Origin: Candidatus Magasanikiibacteriota bacterium
Lineage (GTDB): Bacteria > Patescibacteriota > Patescibacteriia > Magasanikbacterales > GWA2-37-8
Assembly: GCA_023246715.1 (NCBI GenBank)
Contig: JAHFHZ010000001.1
Location: 1-48,570 of the forward strand
DNA length: 48,570 bases
Reading direction: 5' to 3'
How positions within the stretch are numbered: the first letter of the stretch is position 1; every line of letters begins with the position of its first letter. The position numbers and the translations under genes are program-made. Of the stretch, positions 11,561 through 15,235 are shown in pieces. The notes below the pieces were generated by a model. That model did no database searches. It worked only from the letters and a program-made list of their open reading frames with translations, and was not told the DNA's origin.

Positions 11561-12325
11561 ATGCAATTCGACATCCTGACTATTTTTCCCGATTTGATCC
11601 ACCATTACGCGGCCGACAGTATTTTGGGTAAAGCCCAGCGCGCGGGAGCGGTTAAAATTGTTGCCCATAATTTTCGCGATTACGCGCCAGATAAGCACCA
11701 TCGGGTAGATGACCGCCCCTACGGCGGGGGGCCGGGGATGATTTTGCAGGTTCAGCCGATTTTTGAATGCTTAAAAAGCATCAAAGCTTTATCACCAAAA
11801 GCTCTCAAAAATGTCCTGCCCGTGAAAACGGGCATCCAGAAACGGACGCTGAATTCTCGCTTGCGGGGGAATGACAAGACCAAAATTATTATTTTGGATC
11901 CCGCCGGGAAAAAGTTTGATCAACGGTTGGCCGAAAAATACAGCAAACTGGATCGTTTGGTGTTGATCGCCGGGCGCTATGAAGGTTTTGATGAACGGGT
12001 TTATAAATTGGCCGATGAACGAGTGTCGGTAGGGGAGTATGTGTTGGCGGGTGGGGAGTTACCCGCGCTCACGATTGTCGAGGCCGTGGCGCGTTTGATT
12101 CCAGGGGTGCTTGGCAACACGGCGTCGTTGAAAGAAGAAACGTTCAGCAAGATTAAAGTTAATAAAAAAAAGTCATTAGGCATTAGTCATTTGGATTTAG
12201 ACATTTCCAAAGAGTATCCGCAGTATACCCGCCCCGAAGATTTTATGGGTTGGAAAGTGCCCTCGGTTTTGATGAGCGGGGATCATAAAAAAATTCTGGA
12301 GTGGCGGAAGAAAAAGCAAAAATAA
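11561..12325 (+). CDS. trmD: tRNA (guanine-N1)-methyltransferase with an in-frame palindromic-repeat insertion
   Basis: MQFDILTIFPDLI, HHRVDDRPYGGGPGM, LIAGRYEGFDERV, SVGEYVLAGGELPALTIVEAVARLIPGVLG; ATG at 11561. Confidence 0.93.
   Translation: MQFDILTIFPDLIHHYAADSILGKAQRAGAVKIVAHNFRDYAPDKHHRVDDRPYGGGPGMILQVQPIFECLKSIKALSPKALKNVLPVKTGIQKRTLNSRLRGNDKTKIIILDPAGKKFDQRLAEKYSKLDRLVLIAGRYEGFDERVYKLADERVSVGEYVLAGGELPALTIVEAVARLIPGVLGNTASLKEETFSKIKVNKKKSLGISHLDLDISKEYPQYTRPEDFMGWKVPSVLMSGDHKKILEWRKKKQK
11812..11876 (+). repeat. Palindromic repeat copy 1, inside trmD
   Basis: tgtcctGCCCGtgaaaaCGGGCatccagaaacggacgctgaattctcgcttgcgggggaatgaca; near-identical to 13463-13528. Confidence 0.85.
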
Positions 12326-13462: not shown

Positions 13463-13528
13463 TGTCATGCCCGTGAAAACGGGCATCCACAAAACGGACA
13501 CTGGATTCCCGCCTACGCGGGAATGACA
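13463..13528 (+). repeat. Palindromic repeat copy 2, inside 16S V1 (helix 6)
   Basis: tgtcatGCCCGtgaaaaCGGGCatccacaaaacggacactggATTCCCGCctacGCGGGAATgaca; flanked by TCTAGCACT/AGTGCTAGA helix. Confidence 0.85.
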
Positions 13529-14611: not shown

Positions 14612-14726
14612 TGCGCAATGATCAATTACCAATTTTCAATTTTCATTAAATTTTCAATGTTTCAATCCACAATTGTGTAGTTGATCATTGATTGGAAATT
14701 GTAAATTGGTAATTGAAAATTGAGCG
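14612..14726 (+). repeat. AT-rich palindromic insertion near 16S helix 39
   Basis: CAATTACCAATTT (14623-14635) / AAATTGGTAATTG (14703-14715) inside CCCGGCCC.../...GGGCCGGG; absent from canonical 16S. Confidence 0.8.
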
Positions 14727-15235
14727 CGATAGCGCGTTTCGGGCCGGGAGGAAGGAGTGGACGACGTCAAATCAGCATGGCTCTTACATCCAGGGCTACA
14801 CACATGCTACAATGGCCGGTACAATGGGTCGCGAAGCCGCGAGGCGGAGCCAATCCCATCAAAACCGGTCTCAGTTCAGATTGCAGGCTGCAACTCGCCT
14901 GCATGAAGCCGGAATCGCTAGTAAACGCATATCAGCCACGGTGCGTTGAATACGTTCTCGGGTCTTGTACTCACCGCCCGTCACACCACGGGAGTTGGCA
15001 ATGCGCAAAGTCCCTTCGGGATTAACGCAGGGTCAATGACTAGGGTGAAGTCGTAACAAGGCATGGGTAGCGGAAGCTGCTCATGGATCACCTCCTTTCT
15101 GGAGAAACTCTGTCGGAAGACAGTGAATCTTCGTCGATAGGATTCTGGCAACAGAATTTCTAATGGAGGATAGATTGGCAGACGCATTAGGATTATGCGA
15201 AGCTAGGTTTTTATCACCTTTAGTGAAGTCAATAC

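Follow-up and report, generated by a model that had tools for sequence, protein, structure and literature searches.

Rickettsia palindromic elements (RPEs) are known to lie in frame within conserved protein genes, as well as within RNA genes (PMC2229807, PMC3767692), and intragenic REPs have been reported from many species, with one case of insertion at the same site, recB of two Xanthomonas (PMC3733652). For RPE-4, RPE-6 and RPE-7 a common origin was favoured, the R. japonica study leaving undecided whether palindromes inside genes point to hotspots of insertion or are the diverged remains of one old insertion (PMC3767692). Among REPs, the CGTC-1 class was described as having the tag CGTC or TGTC, 8-bp stems opening with an A-T pair, 4-nt loops and CCA tails, with a predominance of dimers that carry their tags outside (HH) and the absence of a dedicated transposase; Neisseria dRS3 and Rickettsia conorii RPE-6 were both assigned to this class (Di Nocera et al. 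2013, PMC3733652). In-frame palindromes as such are already known from these RPEs and REPs, and what is new in the locus described here is the lineage, together with the repeated invasion of one and the same site. In titles and abstract openings, a coverage with few subscription journals and no preprints, no report was found of palindromic inserts in CPR protein genes, nor any description of the extent to which unrelated repeats use the same site.

The trmD gene and its insert

The window analysed is a stretch of 48,570 nucleotides from a Candidatus Magasanikiibacteriota bacterium (contig JAHFHZ010000001.1), in which trmD, encoding a tRNA (guanosine(37)-N1)-methyltransferase of 254 residues, lies at 11561–12325 on the forward strand. 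A preliminary description made from the letters of this window had placed a palindromic repeat in frame within the gene, and this was confirmed, the sequence at 11812–11876 being as described and the trmD frame running unbroken across it. The host gene was also correctly named as encoding an essential tRNA methyltransferase. The protein passes the family cut-offs with its insert in place, scoring 258.6 bits against NF000648 (an NCBIfam equivalog; cut-off 220) and 245.2 bits against TIGR00088 (cut-off 195). Solved TrmDs align by phmmer to query residues 1–74 and 104/105–252, the gap corresponding to the insert, and outside the insert trmD is an otherwise normal gene. Read in this frame, 11812–11876 encodes part of N84, V85–D105 and part of K106, a segment with many K and R residues; the in-frame position had been given correctly, but the flanks quoted for the insert skipped the native SIKALSPKALKN before it and TK after it. 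Without the insert, the loop would look much like the 14–15-residue K-rich loop of relatives that have none. An AlphaFold model of the protein (mean pLDDT 81, from 40 sequences) retrieved TrmD structures in Foldseek and has core blocks mostly at pLDDT 88–97; across the insert, which had been put forward for modelling as a surface loop, pLDDT is 72 (residues 81–90), 56 (91–100) and 77 (101–110), and the segment is indeed predicted as a low-confidence loop.

The element of 65 nt, which is no multiple of 3, is a REP dimer with its tags pointing outward, each unit of 27 nt consisting of TGTC, an 8-nt arm, a 4-nt loop, a second 8-nt arm and CCA, with the second unit inverted. Unit 1 (11812–11838, forward strand) carries the tag TGTC (11812–11815), the arms CTGCCCGT and ACGGGCAT, the loop GAAA and the tail CCA, and its stem has 7 of 8 pairs, the outer A-T being gone. 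Unit 2 (11850–11876, forward strand) opens with the tail TGA, which replaces the TGG kept in most copies, followed by the arms ATTCTCGC and GGGGGAAT around the loop TTGC and by the tag GACA (11873–11876), and its stem contains one G-T pair and one mismatch. The 11-nt spacer between them is GAAACGGACGC (11839–11849, forward strand). On these sequence features the element is assigned to the CGTC-1 REPs, as a dimer whose tags point outward: the tags are unpaired, the A-T-first 8-bp stem and 4-nt loop are seen in the genome consensus ATTCCCGC-NNNN-GCGGGAAT, from which the trmD copy has decayed, CCA is retained in unit 1, and 16 of the 25 copies listed in the genome were recovered by a strict regular expression as tags-outside dimers.

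Intragenic copies and the lack of a dedicated transposase are likewise described for CGTC-1 REPs, although these are mostly from alpha-Proteobacteria, with Patescibacteria absent from the accessible part of the source, whereas the present host is of the Patescibacteria/Magasanikbacteria type; their spacers are mostly 20–100 nt (PMC3733652) instead of 11 nt, and the present element, unlike them, also occurs inside a 16S gene. Because the element fits the class that holds RPE-6 (PMC3733652) and is inserted in both trmD and 16S, the parallel drawn earlier with Rickettsia palindromic elements holds. As with RPE-4/6/7 (PMC3767692) and RPE-1 (via PMC2229807), in-frame palindromes bearing ATGAC occupy surface-exposed positions in essential proteins, and RNA genes contain palindromes as well (tmRNA and M1 RNA in Rickettsia); by comparison with these descriptions, the trmD element would appear to work like the RPEs.

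Copies in the genome and in the 16S rRNA gene

The genome to which the window belongs (G000) comprises 1,058,102 bases in 44 contigs and is 92.8% complete. The nucleotide search that had been proposed, carried out with a 68-mer over the trmD element, gave 13 matches at E≤0.001, confirming that the element is repeated in the genome. The half-site pattern TGGATTCCCGCN{3,8}GCGGGAATGAC occurred 24 times (12+12) and GTCATDCCCGCNNNNGCGGGNAT 28 times, with 0 matches for either reversed control, so that the repeat stands far above chance. About 25 distinct copies are present among the matches listed for this 1.06-Mb genome; trmD is the sole recognised protein gene hit among them, one other copy lies in the 16S gene and two further copies fall in short open frames (L011, L025), a short open frame also overlying the L297 copy.

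The nearest paralogue of the trmD element lies inside the 16S rRNA gene at 13463–13528 on the forward strand, at what we take to be the V1/h6 tip, with both stems complete (8/8 pairs). It is the best non-self match (86%, E 5e-16), the next full-length matches being at 75–79%; "nearly identical", as the two had been called, was too strong. Among 16 complete dimers the trmD copy and the 16S copy are each closest to the other, and the spacer AACGGACRCTG, with small changes, is common to these two only; they lie 1.65 kb apart in identical orientation. The unique spacer and the mutual proximity in sequence together suggest local copying between them. Since each hairpin of the trmD copy is short of one pair and one G-T pair is present, whereas the 16S stems are whole, the trmD copy is seemingly no longer maintained as a hairpin.

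A search limited to PF01797 (Y1 transposase), presumably the family that includes RAYTs, gave 0 matches in this genome at its 92.8% completeness, in agreement with a class that has no associated transposase. A RAYT was accordingly rejected as the mover, and a GTAG REP or REPIN with RAYT was ruled out, the tag here being TGTC.

A second repeat family of the same genome (39 half-sites in 28 clusters) is found inside UvrA, LeuRS (twice), a ComEC-like protein and transketolase; all were checked against family models, the transketolase match being slightly below cut-off. In the LeuRS frame of 1234 residues (L318:958-4659, contig C39) palindromic inserts are read in frame twice, and the related genome G003 has an insert (L207) where the first of them lies.

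The TrmD loop in related genomes

A search of 95 genomes recovered TrmD from 83 of them. The family set consists of 25 genomes including G000, of which 24 gave a TrmD match (G001 did not), the relevant stretch being partly masked in G014 and cut by a contig end in G015. The alignment with related genomes suggested in the preliminary description revealed inserts in some and a short K-rich loop in others, the insert site being the loop between helix α3 and strand β4. Palindromes of the GTCAT...ATGAC type occupy this loop in 7/24 family genomes from 6 genera, with insert ends TGTC...ATGACA in each case, and TGTCATYSYGAG is abundant in the genomes concerned (G009 218, G018 212, G011 98, G019 56, G004 54, G000 39 and G012 33), the reversed control giving 0–2 in any genome. 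Other repeats are found in the same loop elsewhere: an AGTTCAC-type repeat in G016, its motif occurring 17 times in G016, once in G009 and in none of 9 other genomes searched; TGTAGGG...CCCTACA in G005, present at 4 places in G005 and in none of 10 other genomes searched; and a TCCGCC/GGCGGA palindrome in G003, with one further place among the loci examined, which makes G003 the likely third genome with an unrelated repeat in the loop. The loops of G008 and G023 look provisionally similar, and outside the family a single CGTC-type unit is present in the TrmD loop of G026. The frame is open across every such insert read. As sister genera bear unrelated, genome-resident repeats in one loop, the comparison argues for repeated arrival or exchange at this site. 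In Rickettsia, by contrast, every orthologue is described as bearing an insert at one shared position, with a common origin favoured (PMC3767692), whereas here sister genera carry unrelated resident repeats or none.

TrmDs without an insert are mostly in repeat-poor genomes, five g8 genomes and G002 having 0–9 half-sites and short K-rich loops throughout. Repeat count is correlated with TrmD loop length (rho 0.69, p=3e-4, n=23 of 25 genomes, leaving out G001 and the partly masked G014), and also when taken per genus (rho 0.64, n=15, p=0.011); a first version (rho 0.80, n=18) had dropped 7 of the 25 genomes and was replaced. The exceptions, G006 and G013, are repeat-rich with short loops, so supply alone is not decisive. 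The sister species G009 and G018, of one genus, have inserts that differ (64% alike), and another genus is split, G019 having an insert and G013 none. The insert peptide shows no conservation between genera; the contrary picture sketched in the preliminary description, of a peptide conserved in all TrmDs with no nucleotide repeats elsewhere in the genome, departs from the data on both counts. A TrmD tree (26 rows, loops largely excluded, G019 absent) implies at the fewest 11 changes of insert label and is taken as an indication only, good support being limited to 3 of its 23 inner branches and the insert labels being provisional for G008 and G023. The loop can be tracked species by species.

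The G016 trmD (L045) bears the AGTTCAC repeat twice, in the α3–β4 loop and in a later variable loop, and this later loop has a repeat-like look in several relatives (G010, G018, G005, G004). In another family of the order (mostly f5; L056, L057, L060, L061, L148–L167) the position of the present family's variable loop is occupied by a conserved TrmD linker of ~30 residues, DAIPFxKxDGLTKIKKVFNGSL.

Origin of the inserts and other struck genes

It is considered probable that a copy of a genome-resident CGTC-1-type REP dimer landed in the α3–β4 loop of TrmD, was translated and left the enzyme working, and that this loop was struck repeatedly by different repeats because the genomes of the family are full of them. 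Short palindromes would multiply in these genomes as mobile units, presumably with the help of a moving enzyme; the copy in TrmD would be translated in the cell into ~22 extra residues, forming a disordered surface loop that may well be neutral for the enzyme. Copies that break frame or structure would presumably be purged by selection, which would explain why the remaining copies are seen in tolerant loops.

The junctions are less simple. Exact removal of TGTC...GACA from the 7 GTCAT-type inserts creates an in-frame stop in 4 (G009, G018, G011, G019) and a frameshift in 2 (G000, G004), so that simple insertion of the exact unit does not explain them, and the junctions call for additional bases, duplication of the target or indels that arose later; either the mobile unit holds more bases or the flanks were altered later. 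Target-site duplication was itself rejected as a candidate, as no clean empty site was seen and exact excision failed in 6/7. The same failure would suit a history in which recombination or gene conversion repeatedly overwrote one ancestral trmD insertion with other resident repeats, a cassette exchange in which recurrence is replacement. Such a history is also in keeping with the nearly identical 3' junction of all 7 inserts and their common ends, with the G012 and G018 inserts (77% alike, the 27-nt 3' end being 100% identical), with the trmD and 16S copies, whose proximity and common spacer are as local copying predicts, and with the common origin favoured for RPE-4/6/7 (PMC3767692). It is nevertheless rather doubtful, as the repeats of G016, G005 and G003 lack those ends, the 5' junctions vary between genomes, and G019 has an insert that its congener G013 lacks.

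It is improbable that the insert was recruited, its peptide or an mRNA hairpin altering the activity, dimer stability or expression of TrmD: in its favour, repeats have struck loops of essential translation genes repeatedly, but the peptide varies between genera, the trmD hairpins each lack one pair where the 16S copy is complete, and the loop is predicted at low confidence. A design of the element adapted to coding was likewise rejected, stop-free frames averaging 3.0 of 6 over 16 copies against 2.4 in shuffles, an effect too small. Although the inverted repeats are able to fold, intron-like splicing or translational bypassing that would restore a protein of normal length is very improbable, since the frame stays open through every such insert read, the window yields no Rfam intron at gathering threshold, and the step would need to work on several unrelated repeats. 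An assembly artefact, in which contigs were joined via the repeat, is scarcely credible even for a genome in 44 contigs, both flanks belonging to one gene in one frame, independent genomes bearing the same kind of insert in the same loop, and usual sequencing reads exceeding 65 nt.

The preferred reading, a resident dimer landing in a tolerant loop, can be set beside inserts in other genes. A sample of 56 distinct, arbitrarily listed repeat places from family genomes (a few from G000) and G026 included 25 spanned by an open frame and 13 inside recognised genes, namely TsaD twice, SecA, LeuRS, QueA, TatD, RsmA, PheT, MnmA, a beta-CASP nuclease, Fpg, WecG and a glycosyltransferase, with one weaker case (L258; hence 13–14). 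Left uncounted were frames with no family match (L219, L220, L237, L251), places near 5' ends (L200, L203, L213) and places with a match on one side only (L235, L243). Pattern hits in RuvB (L201) and in a UvrA-like frame (L222) were rejected as repeats, being presumably native sequence in view of the family consensus. Repeats are also seen in QueA (L217), PheT (L233), UvrC (L280) and O-antigen ligase (L243), genes that are struck in R. japonica as well, according to its RPE-4/6/7 table (PMC3767692).

TsaD was found in 24/25 family genomes; by peptide reading, GTCAT-type inserts lie in its C-terminal loop in G004, G009, G013, G016 and G019, and in its middle loop in G005, G016, G017 and G023, the DNA pattern being checked for G004 and G016. 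For the 16S gene, 14 loci were chosen and 11 excised by anchors (G003, G009 and G018 being dropped). Among these 11 aligned genes, inserts of 49–71 nt, with four different sequences, are found in G000, G005, G017, G019 and G023 at one hairpin tip, and inserts of 103–148 nt in G000, G005 and G013 at another, positions that we take to be helices h6 and h39. The TsaD loops, LeuRS and the h6 tip show the pattern seen in the TrmD loop. Tentatively, certain tolerant loops of essential proteins, together with rRNA hairpin tips, could form a fixed and shared landing pad in this bacterial family. Several unrelated palindrome families would successively enter or exchange there, about as fast as species diverge, moved by an active system that lacks a Y1 transposase. 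The unrelated repeats in the TrmD loop of sister genera and the inserts in numerous further essential genes of this family lie beyond the view of the preliminary description. Such inserts are natural insertion scans of essential enzymes, and peptides like VIPAKAG..NDK inside proteins of this lineage call for caution, being translated repeats.

Extra sequence in rRNA genes has also been described in the same broad lineage, as CPR rRNA insertion sequences and introns (PMC11270868). The present 16S inserts, unlike these, are palindromic or repeat-like, span 49–148 nt at the h6 and h39 tips and are too short to be introns that encode endonucleases; a term search of the accessible text of that source gave 0 occurrences of "palindrom" or "repeat" (PMC11270868). 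Within the window, a second, unrelated 16S insert lies at 14613–14735, at the h39 tip, and consists of two 45-nt inverted arms; the inserts of G013 and G005 at the same place differ from it.
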